Assembly: GCA_029931535.1 (NCBI GenBank)
Contig: JAQPZY010000478.1
Span: 1-64,000 of the forward strand
Direction of reading: 5' to 3'
From: Margaritifera margaritifera
Taxonomy: Eukaryota > Mollusca > Bivalvia > Unionida > Margaritiferidae
Length of the DNA: 64,000 bases
This document shows positions 35,609-56,420 of this stretch, one piece after another. The translations under genes were made by a program, and so were the position numbers. The notes under the pieces are model-generated. The model searched no databases, was not told where the DNA came from, and saw only the letters and a program-made list of their open reading frames with translations. The first letter of the stretch is position 1; each line of letters starts with the position of its first letter.

Positions 35609-35933
35609 AGTAGTTGAGGGGGGGGGTAAATAGGTTATGGGGGGGGCACTATAGGTACAAACGGGAATTTAGCATTGCGGGGGGCACTATAGGTACCAAC
35701 GGGAATTTGACATGGCGGGGGGCACTATAGGTACCAACGGGAAATTAGCATTGGGGCCTCTACGGGTACCAACGGGAATGGAACATGGCGGGGGGCACTA
35801 TAGGTACAAACGGGAATTAAGCATTGGGGGCACTTGGGGTACCAACGGAAAAAGAAAAAAAAATGGAATATAGCAATCATGGAAAAAATTAATCTTTTCT
35901 TGAAAAATGGGTGGCCCTGAAAAGAGCCGTTGG
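35609..35933. repeat. Left terminal inverted repeat
   Basis: About 325 bp, complementary to 56094-56420. It begins with a G-run-rich stretch, then six imperfect copies of a ~38-bp motif centred on GGTACCAACGGGAAT with G-rich spacers. Its inner end holds a histone-type 3' stem-loop. Homology with the other end stops just after that stem-loop. Confidence 0.95.
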
Positions 35934-36472
35934 AGATTTTTTACTTCCTCCAACATTTGGGTAGGAAGCCTGGGAGGTGGAACTTGTTGTTTTTCTTCTG
36001 TGGCATCCAATAGGGATGTCCCAATCGCCTGAACTTGTCCTGGATTTTCATTCAGTTCAAGTTCAGGCGATTGAATTCCTCTTCTTTCTTGATTTTTTTT
36101 TTCATTAGCCCACATAGCCTTTATCTTTTGGACTTCCTGCTCCATAATTTTTTTAATGATGGTTTTAGCTCGGAGCAGGGCCGCTTCTTGTCGAGTGAGG
36201 ATTGGACACTCCAAATCTTCTTCTAACTCTTTCAAGCGATCCATGGCTTCTTTAAGAAGCCCCACTCGACAAGGTGAGGAGTTCTTCATCTTCATCTTTT
36301 TTTCTTCCTCCTCCTTTACGTCTTGAATTAGGCTCTTGGCCATATTTATGTGGGCTAAGTCTTGTATCACGCAGTGTAGGTTCACTGGATGCCACCACAT
36401 CATTCTTTCTCTATAATACTGGACTTCCACCATCCAGTCCCAGGCTTCCTGTAGATTTTCCACTATATTCAT
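35798..36472 (-). CDS. Left-arm accessory protein A (unknown)
   Basis: ATG at 36470-36472. The product is hydrophilic and charged, with a Trp-rich N-terminus, an acidic/basic stretch (EEEEKKMKMK) and a long likely coiled coil (LKELEEDLE... KIMEQEVQKIKAMW). I recognise no family. The open frame runs through the histone-type stem-loop at 35913-35928 and into the terminal repeat. A TAA in another frame at 35941-35943 lies 12 bases before the stem-loop, and a T5 run at 35990-35994 lies between, so the true end is probably near 35941. A segment near residue 45 (MAKSLIQDV) resembles parts of proteins B and C. The promoter is at 36531-36569. Confidence 0.6.
   Translation of the reverse strand: MNIVENLQEAWDWMVEVQYYRERMMWWHPVNLHCVIQDLAHINMAKSLIQDVKEEEEKKMKMKNSSPCRVGLLKEAMDRLKELEEDLECPILTRQEAALLRAKTIIKKIMEQEVQKIKAMWANEKKNQERRGIQSPELELNENPGQVQAIGTSLLDATEEKQQVPPPRLPTQMLEEVKNLQRLFSGPPIFQEKINFFHDCYIPFFFLFPLVPQVPPMLNSRLYL
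35913..35928 (-). terminator. Histone-type 3' stem-loop 1
   Basis: Minus strand GGCTCTTTTCAGGGCC: 6-bp stem (one G-U pair), TTTC loop, preceded by CCAAC and followed by ACCCA. A purine-rich CAAGAAAAGATTAATTTT follows at 35885-35902, as in U7-binding histone downstream elements. It lies at the inner edge of the left terminal repeat, behind gene A. Confidence 0.88.
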
Positions 36473-36530
36473 TTCTTGCTGGCTTGTCTTGTTGAGTGAA
36501 GTGTGAATGGTGCGACTGCAGAAGGCGCTG

Positions 36531-36569
36531 CTTTATATGCTAGAAGCGCGGACGTGAAGGAAAATATCC
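36531..36569 (-). promoter_or_regulatory. Promoter of gene A: TATA plus shared box
   Basis: Minus strand GCATATAAAG (36531-36540) is preceded by a conserved box (36541-36569) containing CACGTCCGCGCTTCTA. The same box occurs at 37136-37164 and 39094-39122. Confidence 0.75.
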
Positions 36570-36595
36570 AAAGACAAAATCTTATCACACCTTAA

Positions 36596-36742
36596 AACCA
36601 AAACACATCTTTTATCAAACACAAACACACACCACACTATCCTTTTTTAAATTTTTTATCAAACACACACCACACTCTCCTTTTTTTATATTTTTTTATT
36701 ATCAAACACACTCTATACAAACACACAAACATACACACACCT
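36596..36742. repeat. ATCAAACACACACCAC low-complexity block
   Basis: Degenerate repeats of ATCAAACACAAACACACACC alternating with T runs lie between genes A and B. No gene is seen here. Confidence 0.8.
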
Positions 36743-37084
36743 ATATATGGCAATTATGAAAATTAATCTTTTCTTGTGAAATGGGTGGCCCTGAAAAGGG
36801 CCGTTTGGTTTTAGAGTGCATCTAGAGGTGTGGGCACCTCCCTGGCTTGGCCCGACACGCGGGACAGCTCCCCTCCATGTTTTTTCGCTTACACTACAAA
36901 ATGGAGCTGTAAAGGCCGACGGAGGATGAGTCGCTTCAGGCTCCCAATCCTCCATCATCCGGTGGGGTCTAATGGGAATCTTCTTTTCCTGTTCCTCCGC
37001 CTCCCTCTTCTCCACTTCATCGAGAAGGTGCCACGCCACCTCTAGATGAACTCGGATTTGTCTTACAATTTCTATCTTATTCAT
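36713..37084 (-). CDS. Left-arm accessory protein B (unknown)
   Basis: ATG at 37082-37084. It encodes a short helical, charged protein with VAWHLLDEVEKREAEEQEKK near residue 15; this is similar in pattern to parts of proteins A and C. The open frame passes through the histone-type stem-loop at 36787-36802. A TAG in another frame at 36822-36824 lies 19 bases before that stem-loop, and a T6 run at 36880-36885 sits upstream. So the likely end is 36822, with a Cys-containing tail, giving roughly 87 residues. Its promoter (37125-37164) carries the shared box and, further upstream, two CRE sites. Function is unknown. Confidence 0.6.
   Translation of the reverse strand: MNKIEIVRQIRVHLEVAWHLLDEVEKREAEEQEKKIPIRPHRMMEDWEPEATHPPSAFTAPFCSVSEKTWRGAVPRVGPSQGGAHTSRCTLKPNGPFQGHPFHKKRLIFIIAIYRCVYVCVFV
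36787..36802 (-). terminator. Histone-type 3' stem-loop 2
   Basis: Minus strand GGCCCTTTTCAGGGCC: perfect 6-bp stem, TTTC loop, CCAAAC before and ACCCA after. The downstream purine element CAAGAAAAGATTAATTTT is at 36759-36776. It sits behind gene B. Confidence 0.9.
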
Positions 37085-37124
37085 CTTGATAGATAAATGC
37101 GGTAGCTCAACTGTGAAGGTGTTG

Positions 37125-37164
37125 TTTTAATATAGTAGAAGCGCGGACGTGAAGGAAAACATCC
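37125..37164 (-). promoter_or_regulatory. Promoter of gene B: TATA-like plus shared box
   Basis: Minus strand TATATTAAAA (37125-37134) is preceded by the shared box at 37136-37164, nearly identical to that of gene A over ~29 bases. Confidence 0.72.
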
Positions 37165-37201
37165 CTTTCACCTAAAAAAACATTACCCCACTACCCGCGT
37201 C

Positions 37202-37223
37202 TGACGTCATCCCTATGACGTCA
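37202..37223. promoter_or_regulatory. Two CRE palindromes upstream of gene B
   Basis: TGACGTCA occurs at 37202-37209 and 37216-37223. These are consensus CREB/ATF sites, about 60 bp upstream of the gene B TATA region. A third copy lies before gene D (55664-55671). Confidence 0.65.
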
Positions 37224-37317
37224 TTCTAGGCTTCGCGGATTTTGCACTCCATTAACCTTACCCCAAAACCACAGGCCCAGTGCGCGGACCTAAAAGAAAC
37301 ACCTTTTACAAATTTTT

Positions 37318-37645
37318 ATCAAACATACAAACACACCACCCTTTTTTATTTTTAATTTTATTTTTATCAAACACAAACACACAATCCTTTTTTTTTTAAT
37401 CAAACACACACCACAAACATACCATCCATTTTTTAAAATTTTTTATCAAACACAAACCACACAATCCTTTTTTTAATCAAACACACACCACACCATTTAT
37501 TTTTATAAAGTTTTTTTTATATCAAACACACACCACACTCTCTATACAAACATTTTTTTTTTTTGGGGGGGGAAAGGGAATTTTTTGTTTGGTGGGTAAA
37601 ACACAAACACACACACACACACACACACATACAAACACATATATA
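37318..37645. repeat. ATCAAACACA low-complexity block with AC microsatellite
   Basis: A longer version of the block at 36596, ending in a pure (AC)n stretch near 37605-37630 and a G-run near 37565. No gene seen. It lies between the gene B promoter region and the stem-loop of gene C. Confidence 0.8.
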
Positions 37646-37686
37646 TGGCAATGATATGAAAATTAATCTTTTCTTGATTAATGGGT

Positions 37687-37702
37687 GGCCCTGAAAAGGG
37701 CC
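37687..37702 (-). terminator. Histone-type 3' stem-loop 3
   Basis: Minus strand GGCCCTTTTCAGGGCC with CCCCAAC before and ACCCA after; the purine-rich element is at 37661-37676. It begins 25 bases after the gene C stop codon, the spacing normal for replication-dependent histone genes. Confidence 0.92.
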
Positions 37703-37727
37703 GTTGGGGTTAAGAAGTTATGTTGTT

Positions 37728-38144
37728 TTAACTTCTAGTTGCGACAGCAGTAGTAGTAGCAGCCGCAGCAGGGCGGCCACTTTTAGCCACTGGTCTCGTG
37801 GCTGCTGATGGACAAGCTCTCTTTCTGGTAAAAGAGAAGGCAACTTCATCACAATCTATCTTACAGCTGACTTCTCCGTCTGGTAGTTTCATGGACGGCA
37901 AGAGTTGTTGTTGTTGCTGTTGTTGTTGTCTTTGCTGCTGCTGTTGCTGCTGCAGTCTTTGTCTCTCCTCCCATTCCGTTCTGTCCCTGATGATTTCTTC
38001 CCTCAGGACTTCTTCCACCAGATCATGAGCCATTTGTAGGAAGATCATCGTCTTTCTCTCAGGGTTGGTCTCCATCAAATGATACTTTACCCTCTGCATA
38101 TTCACCATAGCGTAGTTCAGTTTGCTTATCTTGGCTGCTGCCAT
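37728..38144 (-). CDS. Left-arm accessory protein C, polyQ (unknown)
   Basis: 138 codons from the ATG at 38142-38144 (context AAGAAGATGG) to TAA at 37728; the frame is open further upstream but the region before 38186 belongs to a separated leader. An N-terminal helical region includes MAHDLVEEVLREEIIRD, comparable with patches in A and B, then a polyglutamine stretch of about 17 residues broken by one Arg, then an Ala/Thr-rich tail with basic residues. The frame is uninterrupted. The histone-type stem-loop follows 25 bases later. Its probable promoter now lies 900 bp away at 39084-39122, separated by an 864-bp insertion. Function unknown; a nuclear regulatory role is only a guess. Confidence 0.7.
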   Translation of the reverse strand: MAAAKISKLNYAMVNMQRVKYHLMETNPERKTMIFLQMAHDLVEEVLREEIIRDRTEWEERQRLQQQQQQQRQQQQQQQQLLPSMKLPDGEVSCKIDCDEVAFSFTRKRACPSAATRPVAKSGRPAAAATTTAVATRS

Positions 38145-38185
38145 CTTCTTGAAGTGTTGTTGAGATCTTGACGAGTCAACGAGAG

Positions 38186-38196
38186 TGACTACACTG
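38186..38196. repeat. Direct repeat flanking an insertion, left copy
   Basis: TGACTACACTG, repeated exactly at 39061-39071. The two copies bracket 38197-39060 and look like a target-site duplication. Confidence 0.75.
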
Positions 38197-38259
38197 ATGA
38201 TGATGATGCTTAAATTAACGTCGTGTGCGCCCATTCGGGCATGAACGACGATTTACCCC

Positions 38260-38309
38260 CATTGCGTGCGAAGCACGCAATGAGGGATTAGAATGTGTGC
38301 TATGCACAC
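38260..38309. repeat. Two adjacent 3-base-loop hairpins
   Basis: CATTGCGTGC-GAA-complement (38260-38282, 10-bp stem) and GTGTGC-TAT-GCACAC (38295-38309, 6-bp stem). No function can be assigned. Confidence 0.7.
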
Positions 38310-38544
38310 TTATTATATTTGTCCAGTGGGTTACAGAGCTGCAATCCACTAGACTAAATTTTTGCGTGTATGGACGCTATTTTCACACTGCTCCATCGCT
38401 ACATGGTGTCCCCACTAAGGGGGTTCATTGAAGGAGTGATATGGAACGGTGCGTGTATTTAAATTCTAAAAAAAATTTTTTGAATATTTTTTCCTGTTCA
38501 TAGGAATAGAACCGCAATGTTTACAGGATTACTTATTTGTTGCG

Positions 38545-38685
38545 ATGACTCTGTCAGGGCGCGGCAAAGGAGGCAAGGGTCGGCTGGCTGCGCCGTCGCG
38601 TCTCAGGTTGCTCCGGCTGGTCCAGGGTTATTTAACGTTTAATAATTTAGATAAATTTTGGCCGAAAGAAGAAAGTATTTGTTGA
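38545..38685 (+). CDS. 46-codon ORF with histone H4/H2A-like start
   Basis: ATG at 38545, TGA ending 38685. Residues 4-12 read SGRGKGGKG, which matches the start of histone H4 (and nearly that of H2A). After residue 12 the similarity is lost. The local base composition is GC-rich only over this stretch (38555-38630), unlike its surroundings. It may be a captured histone 5' coding fragment. It lies inside the 864-bp insertion, followed by AATAAA and a long A tract. Whether it is translated is unknown. Confidence 0.35.
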   Translation: MTLSGRGKGGKGRLAAPSRLRLLRLVQGYLTFNNLDKFWPKEESIC

Positions 38686-38761
38686 AGTATAACAAATTTT
38701 GAAGGTTATGTTTGTATCATATGGCTGTTGTTATTGGTTAAGGAGAGAGAGAAGAAAGAAA

Positions 38762-38790
38762 AATAAAATATATAAAAACAATGTCTGTCG

Positions 38791-38831
<41 letters not shown>
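38762..38831 (+). other. AATAAA followed by a 37-base poly(A) tract
   Basis: AATAAA at 38762-38767, then 27 bases, then 37 consecutive A (38795-38831). This is the arrangement of a retroposed polyadenylated transcript or a SINE/LINE tail. The sequence continues beyond the tract, so the tail is not the end of the insertion as bounded by the 11-bp repeat. Confidence 0.6.
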
Positions 38832-38834
<3 letters not shown>

Positions 38835-38844
38835 CGGGGGGAGT

Positions 38845-39002
38845 TGCCACTTTGTGTAGCTGGGCCTGATGGTTCGGGATTTAGAACCACCTTATAAAGC
38901 TAATTTAGTTGTACAGGTACTTTAATATTAAAAACGTTTCAGAAGTTTAGTAACCGCTTTGTGCAGTTTGGGCCTGATGGTTTGGACTTGTAACCACCTT
39001 AT
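38845..39002. repeat. Two copies of a ~50-bp motif
   Basis: Copies at about 38845-38896 and 38951-39002 share CTTTGTG..G, GGGCCTGATGGTT and AACCACCTTAT, at a ~107-bp period. Confidence 0.7.
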
Positions 39003-39083
39003 GCGTTTAATTTACGTGTGGTTTTTATTTATAACTATATTCTTAAGTTAATTTATCAAATGACTACACTGGCCAACGCACCG

Positions 39084-39122
39084 CTTTATATGCTTGAAGC
39101 GCGGACGCGATGGAAAACATGG
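39084..39122 (-). promoter_or_regulatory. Orphaned promoter of gene C: TATA plus shared box
   Basis: Minus strand GCATATAAAG (39084-39093) and the shared box (39094-39122) match the gene A promoter closely. It now faces the 864-bp insertion. A transcript starting here would enter the insertion before reaching gene C. Confidence 0.72.
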
Positions 39123-39313
39123 GGTTCAGATCGAGAGTGAGAAAATGGATAGAGGTAATAACTTCAGATCGATAGAAAGAGATAGATAGAGCATATCCAT
39201 TTTGTTTTTCAATTTCAATAAACCACACAACACGGTTTTTTCAAAAATCAACATTTTTTAATGAACAAGAAGAAGCTTCTCTAACATAAAAAAGGTAAAC
39301 AAAGAACAAGATA
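39123..39313. other. Intergenic, 3' end region of the structural block
   Basis: No gene. Minus-strand ATTAAA at 39257-39262 lies about 50 bases after the protease stop and could be the poly(A) signal of the late block. There is no histone-type stem-loop here. Confidence 0.5.
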
Positions 39314-39889
39314 TTAAACAGGAACGTATTTACAGGGTTGACAACGTTGGGAAGGTAAACTAAACTTCCACTTTTCTACATCTACAGCATTCTGATGCAC
39401 ACTACGTTTCTGAGCTAAAGATAAGAGATAACCATAACGTTCACAAAACCATCGTTCTACTTTAGCATCGTTTCGAGCATAGTCTCTATCAAAACAAGTC
39501 ACTAAATGTTCCAAGGAATATCCGAGACTGCGTTGATGAAGAAAATGTACACAATATTGTCCGCACACCATTGAATCCGATCCTTGTAATCTAACATTAT
39601 TGAATCGAGTGGAAACGGCATTTCTTCTCGTAAAGTCGATGATGTCGTCTTCTAAAGGGGGTAATCCACAAGAATCAAAATATTCCACACCACCACCACT
39701 GTGATCGTTGGGAAAGTACACGGCTACCCAATGGGTTCCTGGTCGATGACTGTCGTCGGTATTGATGACATAAGCATGAACGTCTTTAGGTTTGCGATGA
39801 GGTAGTTCATCTTTAGCACACACCACAGGATTCCAAGAAGAAGTGTAGGAACTGCGAGTCAACAGGTAATGAAGTTCCCTGGTATCCAT
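39314..39889 (-). CDS. Adenain-like cysteine protease
   Basis: 191 codons from the ATG at 39887-39889; a longer GTG-started frame is not used in eukaryotes. This is the maturation protease of Polintons and adenoviruses (C5 family, ubiquitin-like-protease fold), which cleaves virion precursors. The catalytic set is visible: His53 in GTHWVAVY, Asp72 in EYFDSCG, Gln102 in RLQGSD and Cys109 in SMVCGQYC. The frame is uninterrupted and the length fits the family. It is the last gene of the minus-strand structural block and its start lies just inside the stop region of the preceding gene. This is one of the few core genes intact as written. Confidence 0.9.
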   Translation of the reverse strand: MDTRELHYLLTRSSYTSSWNPVVCAKDELPHRKPKDVHAYVINTDDSHRPGTHWVAVYFPNDHSGGGVEYFDSCGLPPLEDDIIDFTRRNAVSTRFNNVRLQGSDSMVCGQYCVHFLHQRSLGYSLEHLVTCFDRDYARNDAKVERWFCERYGYLLSLAQKRSVHQNAVDVEKWKFSLPSQRCQPCKYVPV

Positions 39890-39894
39890 TTTTT

Positions 39895-40461
39895 TCACAG
39901 GTAACGAAAAGTCATCAATTCACACTTGACTTTTTGCTTGAATTGGTCTCTCGAGTAAGTCGATGAATCACGGACAGTCTCTATAGCCTTTTGTAAATGA
40001 GCTTCGATGCGTCGGATCTCCAGAGGAGTGAGTGGAGGTGAAGAAGAATGCTGCAAGTCTTTATACCATTGTCTCAACACCTTTTCTTCCGAGATCTGAG
40101 ACCAGGCGTCCTCCATATATTCGTCCATTTTTTCTTGTGCACTCATCATCAAACATTTGTCGTGTTGTTTCTGGCTCGGATGATCGATTTGACATCCATG
40201 ACAATCTTTCATAGACAGTTCTGTAATTTTGGAACCCATTGCCGTAGCAAAACAAGAGACTAAATGTTGTTCGTGTTCTGGCCATCTTGATGGCATACAT
40301 GGAATAAATCCAGCAAACTCGGGAACAGTATTATTCTCTTCTTCTTTTGGAAGTTCTGGATGAATCAACCCGTCATCATCAGTGGTAGTTTGTTACTGTT
40401 GTGCTTCACAAAATCCCTCATCATTATCTATCTCCATAGGTTCTTCTTCTACGTGTTGCAT
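39895..40461 (-). pseudogene. Unknown Polinton protein, one premature TAA
   Basis: A frame begins at ATG 40459-40461 directly after the capsid gene, meets TAA at 40393-40395, then stays open to 39895, about 188 codons in all. The product is acidic at the start, with scattered Cys/His (DCHGCQIDH near the middle) and helical, charged second half (LEIRRIEAHLQKAIETV). I recognise no domain. Its place between major capsid and protease suggests a virion or assembly role. Only the stop breaks it; there is no frame change. Confidence 0.6.
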
Positions 40462-40476
40462 CTTTTTTTTTTTCCT

Positions 40477-41886
40477 CTAATAGTCTAGAATTACTTCTCT
40501 CAAACTGTTGATCTCTAGAGTATTATCAAATTCTGCATACAAGACGACGTTCACTGTCTCGGGTAGAGGATTTGCAAACTGAAGTTCCACACGAAGTGGG
40601 CCTGATTTTATGGGGTGGAAATGTCCTTCGTCGCTGCCTTGGTCCGGAGTGAAATCAAAACCTCACAAGGCATACCCTCCTGCATAATCCTGGTACAAAA
40701 TACCGTGGCTGGTGTTGGTGCCTAACTGTCCTGTGGCTTCAAACAGACTCAAGTAAGATCGCAGGTAATTTTTCTCGGCAAAGTCAGGTTCAGAAGGTCT
40801 AGTACACAATGCCTTGCCATCTCGACTGACTTCTATCTTTTTGACGTCAAAGTGCTTGAAGTTGAACGGATTTTCTTTGTGGGATCCATTGAAGGCTGAA
40901 TTTTTGACGATGCCAATCAGCAAACGTTTGGGTAGCTGTCCTTGGAAGACGTGATCTTTGACTTTGGATTGGGCTCCAGTGCCAATGGTAAATGTTTTCA
41001 CTTCCACTCGTCGCACAGGATACTTGGCAGTGGTTCTGCTCAAGGTTTGACTGATGTCGTTGACTACTTTAGGTAAGACTTCTACACGGCGCACGTAAAG
41101 TCTGGTTTCTTGGATGAAGGTTTTCCACAGGTTGTTGTCACCAGTGGCCGTCAAATGGAAAGCAGTACTACTGCGATTCAGTCTCAGGCGTACATCTACT
41201 CCGTTCAACAAATACTTGTCTTGCAACCACATGTCCAAATGCAAACGATCCATCAGTTCTAAAGGGCGGCCTCTAATTTTCTCTCGACGGGCGTTAAATC
41301 CCACATTGTACGGGGTTTCTGGAGTTATATTTTCAGTTAGATCGTCATCAGCCTTCGTAACTTTCGCCGGTACAGTCGCAAGTGTGTCGTTGAAGATATC
41401 AACAATCTTTGTATTGGGGGGGGGGGCCTCCTTTCTCGTTCCCGCGGTGTCAGGTTTCCAGACCACCGAAGCATCCAGATGAGTTTTCTTGGCTTCTTTT
41501 CCGTACGTCAAGAGATTTTCCAAGTAAGCACAGTAAGGGTAAGTATCCAAACTGCTGCTAACCAGTTTGTTATTCAAGTACAAATCTATTCCGCTGAACA
41601 AGGAATGCATGAAATTATTGACGGGTGCCACTAGGTTATCGGCATTTGGAGGGGCACCATCCTTCGTTTCGGCCACTTTGAGTTTCAGGTACAAGTAGCT
41701 GTTATTCAGATCGATGTAATCTTCGGTTTGTCCCTTGATTTCAAATTCGATAATAGCTGAATCCGTCAAAGACGATACAGGATGAAATTCTACCCATTGG
41801 GATTCTTGCATCGTCATCATGGTGGGAGGCATGGAAAACAGATCCAGTTCTGACTTGGTACATTCGCAAGAATCTCGGTGCATCAT
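40477..41886 (-). pseudogene. Major capsid protein, double jelly roll, one TGA
   Basis: ATG at 41884-41886, TAG at 40477-40479, about 469 codons with one in-frame TGA at 40663-40665. The hexon-like protein forms the pseudo-hexagonal capsomers of Polintons and adintoviruses. Supporting sequence: SELDLFSMPPTMMTMQES at the start, EFEIKGQTEDYIDLNNSYLY in the first jelly roll, and a C-terminal strand region (NVVLYAEFDNTLEI) downstream of the stop that belongs to the same family. A G10 run at 41418-41427 does not change the frame. It is followed at 16 bases by the next gene and preceded by the core-like protein. As written the product would lose about 60 C-terminal residues. Confidence 0.85.
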
Positions 41887-41901
41887 TTTTTTCAATGGCT
41901 T

Positions 41902-42348
41902 TTAGTAATCAAACACGTCTAATTCTCTGACGGTTCTTCTTTTCTTATTCTTTTTTGAACCACCGTGTGGTTTTTTATGAACTCTGAATGGATATCGACG
42001 TCGTCTCTTTCTGCCTTGTCCTTGCTGTGAAGTGGAGGAAGAAGTAATGCCAGGGCCAGAAGCGTGAAGTGAATTTAAAGGACTCTCTCGGAGACCCAAA
42101 AGATCTTTGCCAGTGTGCATCAACACATTTTTTCCTGCTCTCATAAAGGCTTCTTTGGGATTTTGTTTGTCGATGAGGACGTTTTGCAGAAATTCTTTTC
42201 CTTGCGTCAAAGCGGCATCTTTTAAGGCATGAAATCCTCGAGTCACCATGGATTTCAAAATAGGGGCTACCGTCCGAAAAGCCGATTTTAACATATCTCC
42301 TAAACCGTGTCCTCGTTGTCGAGCCACTCCTCGGTACACTGGATACAT
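41902..42348 (-). CDS. Basic virion core / minor capsid-like protein
   Basis: 148 codons, ATG at 42346-42348, TAA at 41902, uninterrupted. The N-terminus has GLGDMLKSAFRTVAPILKS, a likely amphipathic helix as in adenovirus pVI-like and Polinton minor virion proteins. The C-terminus is strongly basic (GRKRRRRYPFRVHKK, KKNKKRR), suited to DNA binding or nuclear import. It lies between penton and major capsid genes, a conserved position for such proteins. Assignment to pVI or to a pX/mu type cannot be settled from the sequence alone. Confidence 0.65.
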   Translation of the reverse strand: MYPVYRGVARQRGHGLGDMLKSAFRTVAPILKSMVTRGFHALKDAALTQGKEFLQNVLIDKQNPKEAFMRAGKNVLMHTGKDLLGLRESPLNSLHASGPGITSSSTSQQGQGRKRRRRYPFRVHKKPHGGSKKNKKRRTVRELDVFDY

Positions 42349-42358
42349 TTTTTGTTTG

Positions 42359-43762: not shown

Positions 43763-43768
43763 GTTAGG

Positions 43769-44850
43769 TTACTTCTTCTTCTTCTTTTTATAGTCGACGA
43801 CTTGGGAAGCGGCAATCCAAGAATCAAAACTAGGAGGATATCCTTTCCAACGTACTTTGACTTCTTCTACTCGACGTTTGCTTTCGATGTCGTACAAGGC
43901 GTCTTCTTTTTTGGTCACTCGTTGTAACTCAGGCAAGTAAAATGTTCCTTTGAGCATTTCACCGTGCATGTCTTCCAATTTATAGACGGGAGGATGGCGT
44001 CCACGCACGGGTGTAGTGACACGAAACAATTCGGTGGTCCAGTTGGGTAAATAACCTTTGTCAAACGTGCGTTTGATTTTTACGATGCGAACCCAATCTC
44101 TCGTCTTCAACTCCAGCAAGGTTTTTTTCTGAGGTGGTCTGCTCTGGGGTGTACCAAACAATCGATCAAACACGGTCGCTTAATTTTCAGGGCTGACCAC
44201 TTCGTGGGCACATCCGATGGTACGATTGATTGTACGCTTTGACCAAACGGGGTAACACGTCGATGTACTTGAGAGTATGTTGATGTGTAAAATATTTCCA
44301 TGCGTTCTTTCAAAGTTCTTTGAAAACGTTCCACGATACTGGCTTTGGTTTCAGGATTTTCGGTGGTAAAAAAATGAATCTGTCTTTGTTTCAATTCTTT
44401 TTGAAAAGCTTGGTTTAGAAATTCGGTGCCTTTGTCAGTTTGCCATCGTAAAGGGTGACGACCACTTTGTTTCAAGACCAATTTTAAGGCACGTACCAAT
44501 TCGGTACTGCTTTTAGAAGTCAAAGGCACGACCCAAGCAAATTTGGAAAACACGTCGATGACACAAAACAAATATTTGTGACCACGATTGTAGGCTGCCA
44601 AATGAGAGACGTCGGCTAAATCGGCTTGCCATTGATGATCGATGCCTTCCACTTGGGTTGGACTTCCAGAAAATTTTCGTCGAATGGGATTGTGTAACGT
44701 GTACGTCGATTGTTCTTGTAACCATTGTCATACTTCTGGCAAACGTACACTTTTCAATTTACTTTTAGCAGCTCGATATAATTTTTGAACTCCTCCGTAA
44801 CCAGCAGCATGGCCAGGATTGTAATAAAGGCTGGCTAAAAGTTTCTCCAT
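43769..44850 (-). pseudogene. Retroviral-type (DDE) integrase with chromodomain, broken
   Basis: Begins at ATG 44848-44850, ends 43769. It catalyses element insertion. The core shows the three acidic residues: Asp in WQADLADV, Asp in WQTDKGTEF, Glu in ASIVERFQRT. A C-terminal chromodomain (residues ESKRRVEEVKVRWKGYP, then SFDSWI) is in the last frame. Breaks are TGA at 44728-44730, frame changes near 44300 and near 44215-44228, and TAA at 44180-44182. The protein ends in a lysine run. It cannot be made whole as written. The chromodomain may bias insertion toward marked chromatin, which would fit the location in a tandem array. Confidence 0.85.
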
Positions 44851-44861
44851 GGTTTGATTCC

Positions 44862-46980: not shown

Positions 46981-47705
46981 TTAAGGGGACGTGTAAATGA
47001 CAGGGCCTCCTTCTTGACACCAATGGTGAAACAATTGGGCACGAAATCTCAAATAGGCAGGAGTGGTCGGTTTTAAGTCGATGAGTAAATACGCATGAGG
47101 TGTTTGAGTGGCATCGTCGTACGCATAATTCAACCAAGGAGTGCCTAACTGTTTGGCTAACACTTGCACTTGAGATTTGTCTCTGGGGCTTTTAAACAAT
47201 ACCACGTAAGGAGCGTTGAGACTGATGGTACGATGGGCTTTACTTTGAGAAATAAATTTTGAGTAATGTAAATGATGCTGGCATTTCGATGGTGTCCTTT
47301 TCGTGTAAACCAAAGTTTAATTTCTTCGTCTTCTCCTAACATGTCGTCGAAGATGACCAGATATGTTTGACTCACGTCAGACACGATCCCATCGTCTTCG
47401 CGAGGGATGCCTTCTACAAACGAAATGGCGTCTCCTTGACTTTCACGAAGTAAGGTGTAAGACGGTTGCCACTCTTTGTAACACCACACGATGCGTTGAG
47501 GTGGACGATCGAACAAATGAGATTTGTGTTCGATCAAACGTTTGACAAATTCGGTTTTGCCTGAACCACTGGGTCCAGCAATCAACATGTTAAATGGATG
47601 GCGCAGATACAAAGCTTCCCAACTGGGACGATCTAACTTTTCGTCGATCACTTTGACCACAGAGGAAGTAGAAGAGGCAGACGAGGCAGAAGAAGATGTA
47701 GCCAT
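46981..47705 (-). pseudogene. FtsK/HerA-type packaging ATPase, one frame change
   Basis: ATG 47703-47705, chosen because the upstream extension is unlike the family. It pumps DNA into the capsid. Walker A is GPSGSGKTE near residue 42; Walker B is YLVIFDDML near residue 115. The following ITQN is the sensor-like motif of the A32/FtsK family. A frame change near 47250-47262 moves the C-terminal third (ISLNAPYVVLFKSPRDK...) to another frame that ends at 46981. Length, if in one piece, would be about 240 residues, normal for the family. It lies upstream of the core-like gene. Confidence 0.85.
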
Positions 47706-47773
47706 GACTGAGGTAGAAAGATTTTTGAGAAGAAGACAAAAGACCCAAGACATTTTATACGTTTCATACACGT

Positions 47774-48121: not shown

Positions 48122-48158
48122 TGTTTTTTACTTAGGTTCCCATTGCACTTTTGGAAAC

Positions 48159-48425: not shown

Positions 48426-48489
48426 GTTTTTTTTTTTTTTGATGGTTCATCAAAATAGTCCAAAACAACCACGGGTCCTCCAAAATAAT

Positions 48490-48650: not shown

Positions 48651-48678
48651 TCGTTGACTTCCTTCCACGGAATACGTT

Positions 48679-49274: not shown

Positions 49275-49275
49275 G

Positions 49276-49824
49276 TTACTTCTTCTTGTCATCTGCCTCA
49301 TCGTACCCGTACTCTTCTAAGGCCACTAAAGGTAAGAACTGACAGTGCGGAGACCATGTGGCTTGTTCAATGTAAGCTGAGTCGATAGGCTCCCATTGGT
49401 GAAGTCTCACACCGCAACTGAAACACTGAACTTTATCTCCTTCTCCCAAGTAGATAAATCCAGATCTGGCTAAAGCTTTGGGAGTAGTTGCTTGTAGTAG
49501 ATATTTAGGCCACTTGTCTTGAAACGTATGGAGTCGACTTTCAAACTTGGAATAGCCAGGCAAAGCCACAGGTATCGTCATTTCTTTACCCCTGTAGGGA
49601 TGACATTCACAGGTACGTTTAGCATTCTGCCCAATAAAAAAGAGAGGGCGTCCTGCATCTCTAGAGGTATGGTGAGGCACACGCACAGCAGCATCGCTGA
49701 TGTCCAAGCGTACGGCATCCGTCTCGACGCAAGGTACCGCATCGCACTCCAAGTCGTGATTGGACTTGGAGTTCACACTAGAGGTGAAATTCTCACTCAT
49801 CTTTTTTCTCTCTATGTAATTCAT
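49276..49824 (-). CDS. BIR-domain (IAP-like) protein
   Basis: 182 codons from ATG 49822-49824, five bases after the polymerase stop; an ATG at 49800 is an alternative. One C-terminal BIR domain spans about residues 100-172: KFESRLHTFQDKWPK, LARSGFIYLGEGDKVQCFSC, and HCQFL. BIR proteins bind caspases or their activators and can block apoptosis. The zinc site normally is C-x2-C-x16-H-x6-C; here the His position is Gln (IEQATW), so zinc binding may be weakened or another His used. There is no RING. The N-terminal 80 residues are unassigned. The frame is intact. Confidence 0.85.
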   Translation of the reverse strand: MNYIERKKMSENFTSSVNSKSNHDLECDAVPCVETDAVRLDISDAAVRVPHHTSRDAGRPLFFIGQNAKRTCECHPYRGKEMTIPVALPGYSKFESRLHTFQDKWPKYLLQATTPKALARSGFIYLGEGDKVQCFSCGVRLHQWEPIDSAYIEQATWSPHCQFLPLVALEEYGYDEADDKKK

Positions 49825-49828
49825 CTTT

Positions 49829-52800
49829 CTAGGCCGACGTCTGTATTTGCAATGAATGGTTGGGTTTGGAAGTGGTCCCTTTTTTATACGCAAGATCGGC
49901 GTGTCCGTAAGGCAAAGTGGTGTGGTCTGGAAGTCTCACTCGTTTCTGGTACACGATTTGGTACACTTTTTGTAAAGGACGAGTGACAATTTGGTGATTA
50001 GGTAACCGTACGATCTTGTGAGGTTCTAACGTTTGCACTCGAAAGTCTTCCACTTGTCCAGACAGCAAAGCATTTTTCAAAACCTCAAAATTGACCACTT
50101 GACTGGTTCGATAGTTGAGGGTTAATCCTTTGACTTTACATTGGGTGTGAAGTTGGCCTTGTGGGTCTCGGTATCGGTAGCCGTAATTTTTAGGGCCACC
50201 GCTGGCAAAACTCAGGATGGTGTCTTGAGGGTGCTCGTCTGTCCAGGCTCCTAAACGATCTCCTTGGATGGTAGGGTGTGGGCAACCGGGTCGATGGATG
50301 TACATGCAACTGTCGGTGTCAAAGTACAGGACACGATCTCCCAAGACTTCTAAAGCTTCGTCGTACAACTTCAAACGATCATGGGCTGTCACGTAGGCGG
50401 CAATGACTACGTTGCTAAACTTGTCAGGTTTTACAAACTTGGGTTCTTCTTCGAAATTGACTAAGATCAAATCATCACGGACGATCTCGACGTGTTTGAC
50501 TAGTATACTTTTGTCGCCCACCAGTTGAAAGTAGCGATAAGGATCGGTCACGTATTCCGTCTTGGTTAAGATGGGTCGTTGGGCCATTTTTCCCCACAAA
50601 CAATTGAGCATGACTTTGGTAAACGATCTTTTTCCTTCGTTCTTTTCCACGTCTTCCAAAGTGATGCCTTCAACGTCACGGTACTCTTCTTTGAATCGAA
50701 CTCGGTCTTCGGGAGTCTGACACCACGAGGGATAGCCGCTGGCTTCTTGTTTCAGTTTTAAAAATTGGTTGACGTACCCCGAGAAAATGCCTGGATGATT
50801 CGTGGCGTCGTCCTTTTGGTATTGTGCGGTGGTTGGAAGGTGCCAGATTTCGTACACTTTCAACAAGCGGTATCCTCGATCCAGAGCCCGAAACAATTCA
50901 GCGCTGACCCACGTTCCTGTCAAAGCGCGTTCTTCCTCCGTGTGGTGACAGGGGTGATCTTGGTTGCATGTTTCGGCACACTTACGGCATAAAGGAAACA
51001 TCAGTTTTCCTTGGCAATGGTGAGGCAAGATGGGATGGTACAAGTGGGTCGGAGGTAAGACTTTACATATGATCAATCCTTCGTATTGACGAATGTGTTG
51101 GACGTCGATGTGTTCTGTCAAGATTTCTGGGTGTCCGGTTGGAAAACGAGCATATTTACACACCCAAGGATACAAAGAACACACGTCGATGTATTTGATT
51201 TCTTCTCCTTGGGATTCGTCTACGTCGTACAGCAAGCGAGTGGCATTGGTTCGTCCTCCAAATAAACTGTGGCGTGGATCCAAAGGTTCGATGTCGGCCA
51301 CGTCGTAACTTTCGGTGATGCTCTTAAATTCAGGATCGGTTTTCAAACGTCGATCGTACTCGTGCTCTCACATTTCAACCACTTGGTATCCTTGACTTTC
51401 TAACTTGAGTCGTCGTTGGTAAGTCTGTTCGTACAAGGCTTCCATGCTGACTCCCGTGAAAGGATTTTTCAGGTCTCGGTCAGGAAAACAGGTAGGGCAT
51501 CCGTGAAACAAGCAGCCCTGAAATTCGTACACCGTGTGCGGGTTTTCTAAATCCCAACCATCCACGGAATAAGATCCGATCTTCTTTTCTCCTCCTCCGT
51601 TTCTGGCATGTTGTATCCATTTGTCTTCTTTTTGGCACAAGTAATGGAGCCAACGCAAAACTTTGGCCGAATATTGACGACTGGCAAAGAGAGACGTGTT
51701 GGAGTCGATGATGGCTAGTTCGTTCTCGGGCATGAAGTTTCTGGTGTACACTAAGGAACAGGCTTTGGGTAGGGTGCACGCATCCTTCAAAGAATCGACG
51801 TCTCCGTGATCTAGAAATAACTCTCGAAACTTTCCACAGCAACGGCGCAAAATGTCCACATCGGATCGACAGTACTTGAGCATCTCTTCTTGGAAGTCAA
51901 ACGGTTCTGACTGGTGAGCGCGGTACCAAGCGTGAAAGGCTTCTCGCTGTTCGGGGCGCATTCCGTCGGGGTTGTAACAGTCCACGTCAGGCAAATGAGG
52001 TAGGACGGCATGTTGATTAGCTTCCGTATTGAAGAAGTGGGGAAAATATCCTTTGGCCATTTCTGTCATGCCAAATGTTGTAGGCATTCGACTCAAAGGC
52101 ATGGCTAAATAACTCATGGAATCTTTGAGTTTGACTTGGCCCACTTTCATGTAGATGAGCTTGTTTCCGTTCATGGTGACTTCAGGGCGTTCGGTACCTT
52201 GTTGCAAATAATAATTTAACAAAAACTGTCCATCGTATCCCGAGAAATTGTGAGCTATGACGGTCGCATAGCGATGACAGTCTCCGTAACGTTGAATGTC
52301 CTCTTCGCTTCAAGTGTCGTCGGTGGGGTCTAAAATCCATTCAGCAAACTCGTACAGAGTGTTAGGGCCACGAAAGATTTTTTCACGTCCTCCAGGAATC
52401 CGACTACAATGAGGACAGTGAAAATGGATAGATTCTTGGATGCACTTCTCACAAGCCCGATGAGCCACGCAGAAATTGGGAATGTGAATGTTTGTTTCTT
52501 GCATGCATTCAAAATCAAAAAAGATGAAATCCACTTTGTTCTTGTTCTTCTTTAATTCTTTCTTCTCTGTCTTGTCGTACTTTTGAATAAAACATTGATG
52601 ATCAAAGTTCACCATCTGGTAACAAATAGGACATCTTTTCTTTCCAGCACAAACGTGTCTCTTGGGGTCGTTGGTGCAAATTTGCTGTCCACACGTGGAG
52701 CACAATTTCAATAAGTCGCAAGCACATTTTTGTTGGTAACCTTGTGTCTTGCGTTGCTGTTGGTAACAAGAGGGACTGACAAAAGTGCGTCGACACGTCT

Positions 52801-53925
52801 CACAATGGACGTGGTGTTGTTCAGGAAGGCATGGTTTGTCCGCTAAACAGCCCCGACATCTTGCTCCGCAATGAAGGTGTCGCTCCCGACTGTTAAACCT
52901 TTGGTCGCATTTCTCGCAGTAGTAAGAGTATCCTAGAAATCCTGTGATAGTGGTGATGGCATCGAAATGTTCTTGGTGGTAATACACGTGAATGTATTTT
53001 CCTTCGGGGAAATCGGGGCCTCGAAACAGCATATCTCCGAGCACTTCTTGATGGTGTACTTTCAAAGTGTAGTGAGGAGCCAAGACGTCTTGAAGTTGTT
53101 GCATTTGAGAAATACCACACACGGTGTCTTTGGGGATGCCTGCTTGTCGTAACAGGAGTTCTGCTTCTTTTCGTTGTTGAACTCTGTTAGATCGTCGAAT
53201 GTTATTCCACGCTCTTTTCCATTCTTTGCTCTCTTTCTTGTCGGCATACGTTCGCCCCACCACGATGGCTCGAGCAAAACACATCTGGTCTTGAGTATTG
53301 TCGATTTGGTCGACACTGTGTTTGGTATTTCGAAGATCTCCACCAGTAACGCTTTCCTACTTCGTCCACTCCCTCGAGGAGGAGCAACGTGAGTCATGTA
53401 AAGTGTAGCCTTTCCATCCGTGATGGTAAACTTGTCGTTGGATTGTTGAACGTGCTCGATTTTGGACATGACTTTGTCTGGTGTTAATTCTGCCGAGGTG
53501 CTGAACTCGATCCAAACAGGTGACTTCAAATTGTCGTGATGGATGGCCAGTCTCAATCGATCGTCCTCTTTGGCTCCGCATTGCCGTTTCAAGTTCTGTA
53601 ACACAGATCCCCACAAATCGCTAATGAACCCCGCCGCTTTCTCGGGAGGTACTTCGGACTTGAAGTCTTTGAAGTCAACCGTGTGAGTGTAGGCTGTGGT
53701 TTTAAATTTTCGAGAGGTTATTTTTTGCGTCTCTCGAATGCGATAGTAATTTTCAGGAGCCACGGTAGGACTTTCTTGGTCAGAGGTGTTGGTGATGGTG
53801 GTGGTTTTTGTTTTGGGTGGGTTAGAAGGTGGTAAGGTTTCAGGTTCACTTATCTCTTCTTCGAAATCGCTAGCATGGACTTGAGCTAGCAGTTCAGCCA
53901 GCGGTGTTTCAGGCGGTACGGACAT
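49829..53925 (-). pseudogene. Protein-primed type B DNA polymerase, broken
   Basis: ATG 53923-53925, stop at 49829, about 1365 codons. It replicates the linear element. N-terminal Polinton-specific region (IEHVQQSNDKF), then a Cys/His-rich zinc region (about 52620-52920), exonuclease motif I (FIFFDFECM), exo II near 52240, and the polymerase motifs: A (IDVCSLYPW), B (KVMLNCLWGKMA), C (YFDTDSCMY). Breaks are a frame change near 53340 and TGA at 52310-52312 and 51368-51370. All catalytic motifs are preserved on either side of the breaks. It shares a divergent promoter with the zinc-knuckle gene. Confidence 0.93.
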
Positions 53926-54097
53926 TCTTCGTCATGGCCTCTTTGTTTCTTCTGCTGTTTTCTCATAGATTGGGCGTAATCTTTTCATCTTGAAGTTTAC
54001 TTTGAAACTGATTCAGTTTCACCCAGGGAACCTATATATAGAGAGACCTTCTTACCTTCAGAATCAGTATTTGTGATTCCACTTTCAAACTGTGAAG
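53926..54097. promoter_or_regulatory. Divergent promoter, polymerase / zinc-knuckle gene
   Basis: A plus-strand TATATATA at 54033-54040 lies about 65 bases before the zinc-knuckle ATG. A 17-base near-palindrome GAAACTGATTCAGTTTC (54004-54020) resembles an interferon-stimulated response element or an AP-1-like dyad. No clear TATA faces the polymerase. Confidence 0.6.
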
Positions 54098-54733
54098 ATG
54101 AAAAAGTCAAGAAACCCTATTCCAGTTAATAACCCTGCCGATTACTATCGGGGAATTAACGACAGGATATATCGATACAACTACGCTGGAGATAACAATC
54201 AAGATACTTATTACCTCTGCCAAAAGAAAGGACATTGTGCTTCCTATTGTCCACAACGTCATCAACAAAGAAAAGAAAAGAGAGATAAAAGTCAAGATAC
54301 TTGCTATATCTGCCAAGAGAAAGGACATTGGGCTCCAGAATGTCCACAACGTCAACAAAGAAAAGAAAAGAGAGATAAAAGTCAAGATACTTGCTATATC
54401 TGCCAAGAGAAAGGACATTGGGCCCCAGAATGTCCACAACGTCAACAAAGAAAAGAAAAGAGAGACAAAACAAAAGATATATGTTATCATTGTAAAGGAC
54501 CAGGACATTGGTCTTCGGAGTGTCCTCAGAAAGAAGAAGAAAATCTACCAGAGAGGGAGGAAGCCGAGGAATCTTCACTCCCAGAAGAAGAAGAACCTAT
54601 CGTCAAGAAAAGGAAGAAAGCTAGACGACTGGAAAACAGTGAGAATGAAGAAGAAGAAAAAGAACCCGTGATCCCCGTGAAGATCTTGATCCCTGTGAAG
54701 AAATTGAAGAAGAACAAGAGAGACAGAAAGTGA
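54098..54733 (+). CDS. CCHC zinc-knuckle protein
   Basis: 211 codons, ATG 54098-54100, TGA ending 54733, uninterrupted. Three canonical C-x2-C-x4-H-x4-C knuckles occur: CYICQEKGHWAPEC twice and CYHCKGPGHWSSEC, preceded by one lacking its first Cys (YYLCQKKGHCASYC). Knuckles 1-3 are separated by a near-identical basic spacer (RKEKRDKSQDT), showing recent tandem duplication of a ~75-bp unit. The C-terminal third is acidic and then Lys-rich, like a nuclear localisation signal. Such knuckles bind single-stranded DNA or RNA, as in retroviral nucleocapsid and CNBP. It is the only long plus-strand gene of the element and is read away from the polymerase. Confidence 0.85.
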   Translation: MKKSRNPIPVNNPADYYRGINDRIYRYNYAGDNNQDTYYLCQKKGHCASYCPQRHQQRKEKRDKSQDTCYICQEKGHWAPECPQRQQRKEKRDKSQDTCYICQEKGHWAPECPQRQQRKEKRDKTKDICYHCKGPGHWSSECPQKEEENLPEREEAEESSLPEEEEPIVKKRKKARRLENSENEEEEKEPVIPVKILIPVKKLKKNKRDRK

Positions 54734-54970
54734 ACAATGAACTTTTTTTGGAGTGTGGTGTTATGTTCGTGGTAAATTATTTTGTATAAAAAAAAGAGAA
54801 TAGACGAGAATGGAAAAAAAGTAAGTGTCTTTGTGTTGTTTTTTTTTTTTTTTTTTTGTTATTTAGAATAGGGATGCACGCACGCACGCACTCTTACACA
54901 AAAACCAAGGAATGGGATTTAAAGTTTTACTTCATTTGGCAAAATTGATTTCTTTTCTAGATAAATGGCT
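54734..54970. other. Intergenic between convergent genes
   Basis: No gene. It contains a T-run (54841-54857), a short (CACG)n stretch near 54875, and the downstream element of stem-loop 4. No clear poly(A) signal for the plus-strand gene: AATAGA at 54800 is the nearest candidate. Confidence 0.5.
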
Positions 54971-54986
54971 GGCCCTGAAAAGGACC
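54971..54986 (-). terminator. Histone-type 3' stem-loop 4
   Basis: Minus strand GGTCCTTTTCAGGGCC: 6-bp stem with one G-U pair and TTTC loop, CCCCAAC before, AGCCA after; purine-rich TCTAGAAAAGAAATC downstream (54941-54960). It starts 31 bases after the gene D stop. Confidence 0.85.
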
Positions 54987-55017
54987 GTTGGGGTGTTTGT
55001 TTTTTGCTAAAACAAAC

Positions 55018-55608
55018 TTATGGGCTCGACATGATGAGCTTCAATTGTCGCAATCCTTTTCCACGACCCAGTCCCATTCCTCCTCCTCCTGTTGCTGCTT
55101 TGGTGGTAGTAGTTGTAGTAGTGAATGGTGATGGTAGTGATGGTAGCTTCTCACTAGTAGTAGTCGTCGTGACGGGTTTAGCATGTTTAGCCCGTGATGG
55201 CCTTTTTCTCTTTGGTTGAGTTAAAGAATACTCATACAGGTTTGTCAAACGTTTTAACTCGGATAAAATGCCTTGCAGTAGACTCACCGTTTTATCTTCC
55301 TCACTCTCTTAATGCGGTTCTTCACTCTTCTCCTCTTCTATCTTTCTTAGTTCTTCTTCTCGCTTTCTCCTTTCCTCTTCTTGCTGAAGAAACACTTCTT
55401 CCGCTTTAAAAAAATTTCCAATTCTTCTTGTTGCCTCTTTTTAAAATCATCCATGACAGGCAAAGAGGCTGGTATAGCAGCAGTCGTGGTAGTTTCAGGC
55501 TCAAATTCTTGAGACAAAAAATCTAAATTAAAATCTTCCGGTTGGAAGTTTAACACAACATTCGTTGCAGACTCACCCCAATACATACTGGTCTTTGCGG
55601 TCTCCATT
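55018..55608 (-). pseudogene. Right-arm accessory protein D (unknown), broken
   Basis: ATG 55606-55608. The N-terminal part is acidic/Thr-rich; a strongly charged coiled coil (QQEEERRKREEELRKIEEEK) follows, then LLQGILSELKRLTNLYEYS, a basic patch (PKRKRPSRAKHAKP) that may be a nuclear localisation signal, a Thr run and a Gly-rich end. The reading changes frame at a T7 run near 55408-55414 and meets TAA at about 55312-55314; the C-terminal part is open to TAA 55018-55020. A histone-type stem-loop follows. I recognise no domain. Confidence 0.55.
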
Positions 55609-55837
55609 CGGCTGTCCAAAAAGTAAAAACCCTACGAACGCTGTGATACCTTTATACCCAAAATGACGTCACACCCCTACTCTCTTTCCATTGGAAGAAA
55701 AACCTACCCGCTTGTAACGCGCGCTTCGATTGGTACTTCATTTCAATCTATTTCGATCCACTCATAAGGTATATATACGACCGCTTGTCTCGTAAAGCTT
55801 CACCGGTTTTCTCCAAGACCACTCTGGAAGAAGAAAA
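55609..55837. promoter_or_regulatory. Bidirectional promoter of genes D and E
   Basis: Toward gene D (minus): TATA at 55651-55657, CRE palindrome TGACGTCA at 55664-55671, CCAAT at 55688-55694. Toward gene E (plus): GCGCGCTTC near 55719, ATTGG at 55729-55733 and TATATATA at 55770-55777, 60 bases before the ATG. Confidence 0.7.
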
Positions 55838-56017
55838 ATGTGGACAAGTGTGGAATCATCAAACATCGTCTCGGGAATGCTGTTTGACCCAGCATTCCCC
55901 ATGTATGTAAAAAGCCTCATGGGCTGTTACGAAAATCACAGAGACAGCGATATGGAAACGTCGGATTTATGTGGAGAGACAAGGATGTTTAAAGAGGGTA
56001 CTCCTCTACGGACTTAA
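55838..56017 (+). CDS. Right-arm accessory protein E, 59 aa (unknown)
   Basis: ATG 55838-55840 in a good context (AAAAATGT), TAA ending 56017. It is acidic with two Cys, no membrane span, and I recognise no family. A strong TATA lies 60 bases upstream. Downstream are three hairpins in a row, the last a histone-type stem-loop inside the right terminal repeat. The arrangement mirrors gene A at the other end of the element. Confidence 0.55.
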   Translation: MWTSVESSNIVSGMLFDPAFPMYVKSLMGCYENHRDSDMETSDLCGETRMFKEGTPLRT

Positions 56018-56068
56018 AGTCCGTAGAAGTCTTAGAAGAAGAAGACCTTCCAAGAGATGTCTTCTTCT
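56006..56068. repeat. Two hairpins between gene E and its stem-loop
   Basis: A 10-bp inverted repeat CTACGGACTT (56006-56026, one-base centre, overlapping the gene E stop) and a second of AGAAGAAGAC (56037-56046 with 56059-56068). Confidence 0.7.
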
Positions 56069-56093
56069 CTCTTGTTAACTTCACCAACAAAAA

Positions 56094-56420
56094 CCAATGG
56101 CCCTTTTCAGGGCCACCCATTTTTCAAGAAAAGATTAATTTTTTCCATGATTGCCATGTTCCATTTTTTTTTTCTTTTTCCGTTGGTACCCCAAGTGCCC
56201 CCAATGCTAAATTCCCGTTTGTACCTATAGTGCCCCCCGCCATGTTCCATTCCCGTTGGTACCCGTAGAGGCCCCAATGTTAATTTCCCGTTGGTACCTA
56301 TAGTGCCCCCCGCAATGTTAAATTCCCGTTGGTACCTATAGTGCCCCCCGCCATGCTAAATTCCCGTTTGTACCTATAGTACCCCCCATGACCTATTTAC
56401 CCCCCCCCCCCTCTACTACT
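56094..56420. repeat. Right terminal inverted repeat
   Basis: About 327 bp, the complement of 35609-35933, with the same six GGTAC(A/C)AACGG sub-repeats and slightly different G/C-run lengths. It ends ACTACT at 56420. Confidence 0.95.
56099..56114 (+). terminator. Histone-type 3' stem-loop 5
   Basis: Plus strand GGCCCTTTTCAGGGCC followed by ACCCA and TCAAGAAAAGATTAATTTT (56124-56142). It is at the inner edge of the right terminal repeat, 81 bases after the gene E stop. Confidence 0.9.

Follow-up and report, generated by a model that had tools for sequence, protein, structure and literature searches.

The mRNAs of metazoan replication-dependent histone genes end in a stem-loop followed by a purine-rich element, and this combination is bound by the stem-loop binding protein (SLBP) and the U7 small nuclear ribonucleoprotein (snRNP), by which mRNAs without poly(A) are made. 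Histone mRNAs of this pathway are stable mainly in S phase, and 3′ ends of this type are commonly regarded as almost exclusive to replication-dependent histone genes. Here, a stretch of 64,000 nt from the bivalve Margaritifera margaritifera (contig JAQPZY010000478.1 of assembly GCA_029931535.1, positions 1 to 64,000, forward strand; referred to as the window) was analysed, in which a Polinton/adintovirus-type provirus of 20,812 bp at 35609..56420 carries histone-type stem-loops behind five small genes, designated A to E. The element resembles Polintons/Mavericks and adintoviruses in its chromodomain integrase, DNA polymerase B, A32-type ATPase, capsid protein, inverted repeats and 6-bp target duplication, but differs from them in that a set of its end genes carries 3′ ends of the histone type. 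Judged from sequence, these small end genes (A, B and C on the left, D and E on the right) probably use the SLBP/U7 histone 3′-end pathway of the host.

A literature search for the histone stem-loop in connection with Polintons, transposable elements and viral mRNAs processed by SLBP/U7 found no account of genes, conservation or function. The signal itself has been counted once, as six histone 3′-untranslated region (3′-UTR) stem-loops among the non-coding RNA matches of a Polinton-like virus and virophage collection (PMC12220804, 2025), which passed without comment in the accessible parts of that paper. These loops share with the present ones the Rfam-type signal and a related group of elements but, in the same parts, come without gene assignment, purine box, conservation or mechanism. 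The statement of a first-pass annotation of the window that no such ends had been described in Polintons or adintoviruses thus holds, as far as the accessible text goes, for genes, conservation and function, but not for the presence of the signal (n = 6). In Mimivirus and the Marseilleviridae a hairpin marks the mRNA 3′ end, where, according to the accessible part of the source, any palindrome serves and poly(A) is added (PMC5413956); the present element is unlike these viruses in having a fixed histone sequence and a purine box.

The stem-loops were scored with the Rfam model RF00032 (Histone3), which covers the stem-loop together with the downstream purine element and has a gathering score of 34. 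On the minus strand, the loops of gene A (35913..35928; 38.5 bits over 35888-35933), gene B (36787..36802; 42.0 bits over 36762-36807) and gene C (37687..37702; 42.9 bits over 37662-37707) are followed by purine-rich histone downstream elements, read from the sequence, at 35885..35902, 36759..36776 and 37659..37676, respectively. The gene D loop (54971..54986, minus strand) matches the pattern exactly and is followed by a variant purine-rich element at 54941..54960, and the gene E loop (56099..56114, plus strand; 42.6 bits over 56094-56139) by one at 56125..56142, both likewise read from the sequence. Four of the five loops pass the gathering score, and the fifth, that of gene D, reaches 27 bits (E 0.00066) over 54947-54991. 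With up to two mismatches allowed, the stem-loop pattern occurs five times in the 64 kb, compared to a mean of 0.29 in 100 shuffled sequences, none of which reached five, and it is absent at this stringency from the 17 kb of core genes between the loops (37703-54970). A match to the leu-phe leader model (39 bits, gathering score 70) was taken as chance.

The first-pass annotation had reported five copies of the loop, each preceded by CCAAC and followed by ACCCA. All five 16-mers are exact at the positions given there. The loops at 35913 (minus strand) and 56099 (plus strand) represent a single site, located at the inner border of each terminal inverted repeat and duplicated with it (arms I4, 35849-35933 and 56094-56178), which leaves four independent positions instead of five. 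The flanks are less uniform than had been stated: CCAAC precedes three of the five loops (CAAAC at 36787 and CCAAT at 56099), and ACCCA follows four (AGCCA at 54971).

The genes in front of these loops were compared with their copies elsewhere in the host genome. For all counts of tails, open frames, substitution ratios and poly(A) signals, only loops followed by AAAGA or AAAAA no more than 34 nt past the stem were retained; in the set of 137 different tails this filter dropped 41 loops, which by reading are mostly opposite-strand images of the palindrome, not checked singly. Frames of at least 55 amino acids (aa) ending no more than 60 nt before a loop were listed and sorted into families by eye. 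This resulted in 30 open single-exon frames from five gene families (A, 4 full-length and 4 fragments; B, 6; C, 4; D, 1; E, 11), all with their stop codon 12-35 nt before the loop. In open relatives the distance is 16-17 nt for A, 19-24 nt for B, 21-26 nt for C, 33 nt for D and 18-26 nt for E. A frame of this kind precedes 21 of 40 loops in loci L001-L020 and before 9 of 52 in loci L051-L080, versus 3.7% and 4.1% of random positions, and the strand of the loop is the strand of the gene in every open copy seen. Many element copies are decayed.

In the window itself, gene C (37728..38234, minus strand) is an open frame with its stop 25 nt before the loop. Gene A (35798..36472, minus strand; open relatives of 181-199 aa and one longer frame of 236 aa) and gene B (36713..37084, minus strand; open relatives of 87-135 aa) are broken copies, in which the longest ATG frame continues through the loop and a stop just before the loop lies in another frame. 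Gene D (55020..55607, minus strand, extent approximate; open relative of 195 aa in L013) is broken, and gene E (55838..56017, plus strand; open relatives of 63-141 aa) is cut short. The stops reported earlier at 25 nt (C) and 31 nt (D) before the loop are both in the sequence, the latter behind a gene that is broken upstream of it.

The tails were compared with those of the host's own histone genes, which were found in tandem arrays with PF00125. A stem-loop is present at 29 of 30 fetched histone loci, followed for example by CTCTAGAAAAGA or CAAGAAAAGA and in several cases by TTGCC further on, and the purine box lies at 12-14 nt in 11 of 12 different tails. The element tails come in two forms, CAAGAAAAGATTAATTTT and CTCTAGAAAAGATAAC, both then followed by TTGCC in most tails (120 of 137). 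Their agreement with metazoan replication-dependent histone 3′ ends (RF00032; SLBP/U7), which the first-pass annotation had proposed, extends to the sequence and size of the stem-loop with six pairs and a four-base loop, to ACCCA, to a purine box about 12 nt on and to a stop 12-35 nt upstream. The short 3′-UTR, the open single-exon frames and TATA-like promoters are further features shared with histone genes; the element genes are unlike them in that they encode no histones, sit in a mobile DNA virus and in some cases have downstream poly(A)-like signals. The RNA-binding domain of a host SLBP was detected in two exons on one contig (C413; PF15247, 64.3 and 38.8 bits). Because the purine box is common to host histones and element, both likely pair with the same U7. 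Degenerate histone-like matches with in-frame stops, arranged in tandem about 1.7-3.8 kb apart, were additionally seen on host contigs C226, C668, C751, C1281 and others.

Among 95 different element tails, the segment AAC-stem-loop-ACCCA together with TCAAGAAAAGA is conserved at 70-99% per position, compared to roughly 25-55% at positions 30-60 upstream and 30-65% downstream, so that the stretch from AAC through the stem, ACCCA and TCAAGAAAAGATTAAT stands out from both flanks. The purine core is located 12 nt past the stem in 90 of the 95. In the set of 137 tails, from which two unplaced matches (L109 and L131) were left out, all six stem pairs form in 117. Pair 3 is C-G in 103 tails, T-G in 31 and T-A in 1, and pair 4 is C-G in 100, T-A in 17 and T-G in 9. 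The step from C-G to T-A at pair 4 is a two-sided change, though probably the result of few events that many copies inherited.

Conservation of this kind bears on a reading in which the loops act as the hairpins of giant viruses do, any palindrome leading to cleavage and poly(A) addition, or in which they are a signal at the level of DNA. The two loops at the inner edge of the inverted repeats would fit either form of it, and hairpins do mark mRNA 3′ ends in Mimivirus and the Marseilleviridae, as given in the accessible part of PMC5413956. Against this, sequence is kept beyond pairing in the loop, ACCCA and the purine box, the tail matches that of host histone genes, the loop strand follows the gene in the open copies seen, and the ends of the core (capsid) genes lack a loop. 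We regard this reading as highly improbable.

The ratio of nonsynonymous to synonymous substitution rates (Ka/Ks) is 0.17-0.32 in all 6 pairs of gene B, 0.24-0.28 in 5 of 6 pairs of gene C and 0.17-0.24 in 5 of 6 computable pairs of gene E. These values indicate that the genes were under selection and that single copies drift after insertion. The gene products gave few relatives: no Pfam family was over cut-off for the open reading frames of this gene class in the window or for 8 proteins of open A to E copies, and no relative of gene C at E <= 0.001 was found among 108 candidates, while for gene E two unnamed relatives appeared among the best 8000 candidates scored. The predicted structure of the gene E protein is poor (predicted local distance difference test score, pLDDT, 51.8), and a sequence search of the Protein Data Bank (PDB) gave nothing for it. 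For gene A the only PDB sequence matches were uL23 ribosomal proteins (E 0.22-0.62), which were taken as noise. LxCxE, the Rb-binding motif of viral oncoproteins, is absent from all 30 open frames.

No histone is encoded, as Pfam reported no histone match among the element open reading frames tested, and on this ground host histone genes inside the element were rejected as an explanation. The plus strand at 38545-38580, within 38200-39060, contains a short piece similar to the beginning of a histone H4/H2A gene (SGRGKGGKGR); it matches host histone genes over 28-36 nt at 86-90% identity and is kept in 5 other element copies. This fragment suggests that the element came into contact with histone genes in the past. 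It also lends something to the idea that a functionless histone-gene fragment hitch-hiked recently, or that the loops are due to chance, which nevertheless is barely credible: 0.29 matches are expected, whereas the loops occupy four positions, stand behind five gene families and are kept in copies diverged to a Ks of about 1. A chance origin of the loops was rejected on the shuffle counts and on the enrichment of open frames before them.

The distribution of the signal was analysed in the window's own assembly of 2.45 Gb, that is, in a single host genome. Scoring was performed for 75 Histone3 matches, all over cut-off, out of 508,685 first-look candidates; they do not amount to a full count, as the loops of host histone genes exist yet are not among the 75. 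In the covariance search, 73 of the 75 scored matches proved to be copies of this element family, 2 were unplaced and none was classed as histone. The first 20 loci all match the window element over pieces of at least 341 bases. For a further 54 loci, pieces of 316 bases with 70 bases around the loop masked were used, of which 50 match the window element, 2 match relatives of the element and 2 match nothing in the comparison set; the 75th match is the window's own site. At the unplaced L109 and L131, the histone-type loop is not surrounded by recognised element sequence, and the purine box differs in form.

With gene C as protein query, 150 copies were scored out of 5802 candidates. In the best 30 of these 150, the window's included, a loop follows 25-71 nt past the end of the match in every case (27 exact, 3 with one mismatch). 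Conversely, all 8 capsid-gene 3′ ends analysed (of 102 scored copies; 123-225 nt past the stop) are without a loop, the best match having 5 mismatches, and two stretches of 4.2 kb around the capsid gene contain nothing better than 3 mismatches. Loops at random places in related elements, which would speak against a function at gene ends, were thus not seen. In IMG/VR, 4 pattern stretches were obtained with the capsid protein and 59 with the capsid alignment, and tblastn confirmed no relative; loop patterns gave 0, 0 and 1 matches there, and the single match (L081) is G+C-rich and was judged from 301 bases to be chance.

The abundance of copies (for gene C, 150 scored of 5802 candidates) and the closeness of the tails to host histone tails would also suit a decoy, in which many copies or transcripts bind SLBP and U7, lower the histone supply of the host and leave the element DNA less packed, with expression of A to E being secondary. 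For a decoy alone there would be no need of conserved frames that have promoters of their own and are followed at a constant distance by the tail, and we consider this reading very unlikely.

Promoter-like sequences were found upstream of the end genes. The box GCGCGGACG with a TATA-like sequence occurs three times in the element, all on the minus strand, in blocks upstream of gene A (36515..36567, box at 36546), gene B (37110..37162, box at 37141) and gene C (39068..39120, box at 39099). Gene C is separated from its block by about 860 bp, a segment that is missing in L010 and kept in 5 fetched copies besides the window. The divergent genes D and E have a region in common (55608..55837) with TATA-like stretches and TGACGTCA at 55664. 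In five copies (L008, L015, L016, L019 and L020), gene A comes immediately after gene E on the same strand and both genes have a tail of their own, an arrangement that looks like cassette shuffling of promoter-gene-loop units.

Several observations weigh against the SLBP/U7 reading. Four of the five window genes are damaged: A, B and D are broken and E is truncated. Folding z-scores of 53-nt pieces around the five loops were -4.8, -2.7, -1.9, -1.3 and -1.1, which is strong for two loops and weak for three; it is sequence, position and conservation, and not folding energy, that carry the case for the loops. At least one stem pair is missing in 20 of the 137 tails, and pair 4 is mismatched in 11. 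The closest pairs of genes A, C and E have Ka/Ks values of 0.71, 0.79 and 1.0, which copies that drift once inserted would be expected to show. Of the 25 Ka/Ks comparisons, 6 (4 of E, 2 of A) were saturated. A U7 of the host was not found with RF00066, in a search whose controls gave no match either, and a U7 pattern search yielded 508 matches versus 466 in the reversed control, that is, background level.

The remaining point of this kind concerns polyadenylation. AATAAA with a GU-rich stretch within 300 nt downstream was found in 27 of 32 gene C tails and 9 of 23 gene B tails, and polyadenylated forms are therefore likely for some genes. In the window, possible backup poly(A) signals AATAAA lie on the minus strand downstream of the loops of gene B (36695..36700) and gene C (37496..37501). 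Repeated GTGTGGTGTGTGTTTGATAAAAA-type units downstream of these two loops (36608-37574, minus strand) resemble poly(A) signals with GU-rich stretches. The signal was seen in none of 17 A, 14 E, 4 D and 1 unassigned tails; its frequency in random windows is 7.9% in gene-C loci, and it occurs in 1 of 40 tails in L001-L020 as a whole. These counts can be read as two modes for gene C and some copies of B and one mode for A, D and E. They also bear on an account in which the genes are normally polyadenylated downstream and the histone tail is additional or residual. Such an account draws on the excess in C and B tails over random windows of gene-C loci, but leaves the 0 of 35 A, D and E tails and the 1 of 40 in L001-L020 aside, and a residual tail would not be the best-conserved part of the 3′ region. 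We consider it unlikely, though less so than the other alternatives.

The element has the remaining features of a Polinton. It is flanked by a 6-bp target-site duplication, AACGCT, at 35603..35608 and 56421..56426 (plus strand), and has the ends AG..CT; both the 6-bp duplication and these ends are Polinton hallmarks. The terminal inverted repeats (inverted arms I1, I4 and I15) span approximately 35609-35933, with the gene A loop at the inner edge, and 56094-56420, with the gene E loop at the inner edge. The insertion interrupts a single unit of a tandem array of 4.3-kb tRNA-Trp repeats, and the empty insertion site is present, at two mismatches, in 8 other units of the array. Tandem 4.3-kb units, each with a tRNA-Trp gene, occupy 1-35600 and 56430-58000, and the array is interrupted by the provirus.

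The core genes are all on the minus strand. The major capsid protein (40663..41886), a candidate for the double-jelly-roll type of Polintons, has 2052 relatives at E <= 0.001, the named ones among them being oyster and clam 'F54H12.2-like' proteins; its C-terminus is shorter than in relatives, no histone-type loop stands at its end, and no solved structure was matched in a PDB sequence search. An integrase lies in two frames at 43769..44727 (rve, E 1.4e-13, 51.4 bits, over cut-off), and the match to its chromodomain (Chromo, 23.8 bits) is just under the cut-off of 25.1. An A32-type packaging ATPase was identified at 47157..47753 (Pox_A32, E 4e-8, 33.5 bits, over cut-off) and an inhibitor-of-apoptosis (BIR) protein at 49276..49824 (E 1.8e-20). 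DNA polymerase B of the protein-primed type is present in pieces at 49829..52309 (DNA_pol_B_2, E 1.5e-7 and 6.3e-9, both over cut-off), with further frames without Pfam match up to 53931. A weak candidate for an adenovirus-type protease lies at 39314..39919 (Peptidase_C5, E 0.033, below cut-off). Additionally, a zinc-knuckle (CCHC) protein with tandem 90-bp repeats was seen at 54098-54733 on the plus strand, converging on gene D. On the basis of polymerase, ATPase, integrase, capsid, inverted repeats, 6-bp duplication and empty sites, 35609-56420 is read as a Polinton/adintovirus-type provirus with several broken genes, as the earlier identification of the element had it.

In the preferred reading, the stem-loop would be recognised by host SLBP and the purine box by U7 snRNP, and cleavage of the pre-mRNA a few bases past ACCCA would leave a short message that lacks poly(A). 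As the stability of histone mRNAs is largely confined to S phase, S-phase expression of A to E would follow: their mRNAs would be stable mainly during the DNA copying of the cell, and the genes would be expressed when element DNA can be copied. The outward-pointing loops inside the inverted repeats might stop transcription before the replication ends. When histone-type processing is unavailable, transcripts of genes C and B would probably be cleaved and polyadenylated at the downstream signals, as a second mode. SLBP/U7 processing, the lack of poly(A), the coupling to S phase and the purpose of the arrangement are what we infer from the letters of window and copies. For the reading in full, namely that an animal Polinton lineage evolved a replication-coupled class of end genes with a common promoter box, a captured histone 3′ signal, poly(A)-less S-phase mRNAs made by SLBP/U7 and inverted-repeat loops insulating the replication ends, we hold the balance to be moderately in favour.

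If this is true, a non-histone, virus-borne class of genes would run on the histone mRNA pathway, with promoter-gene-loop units shuffling as cassettes between elements. This would offer a DNA virus a simple way of timing its genes to host replication with no need to sense the cell cycle. With so many diverged copies present alongside the histone arrays of the host, the signal would be open to comparative dissection, and an element gene set with the histone ending would constitute a natural experiment on the requirements of the SLBP/U7 pathway.

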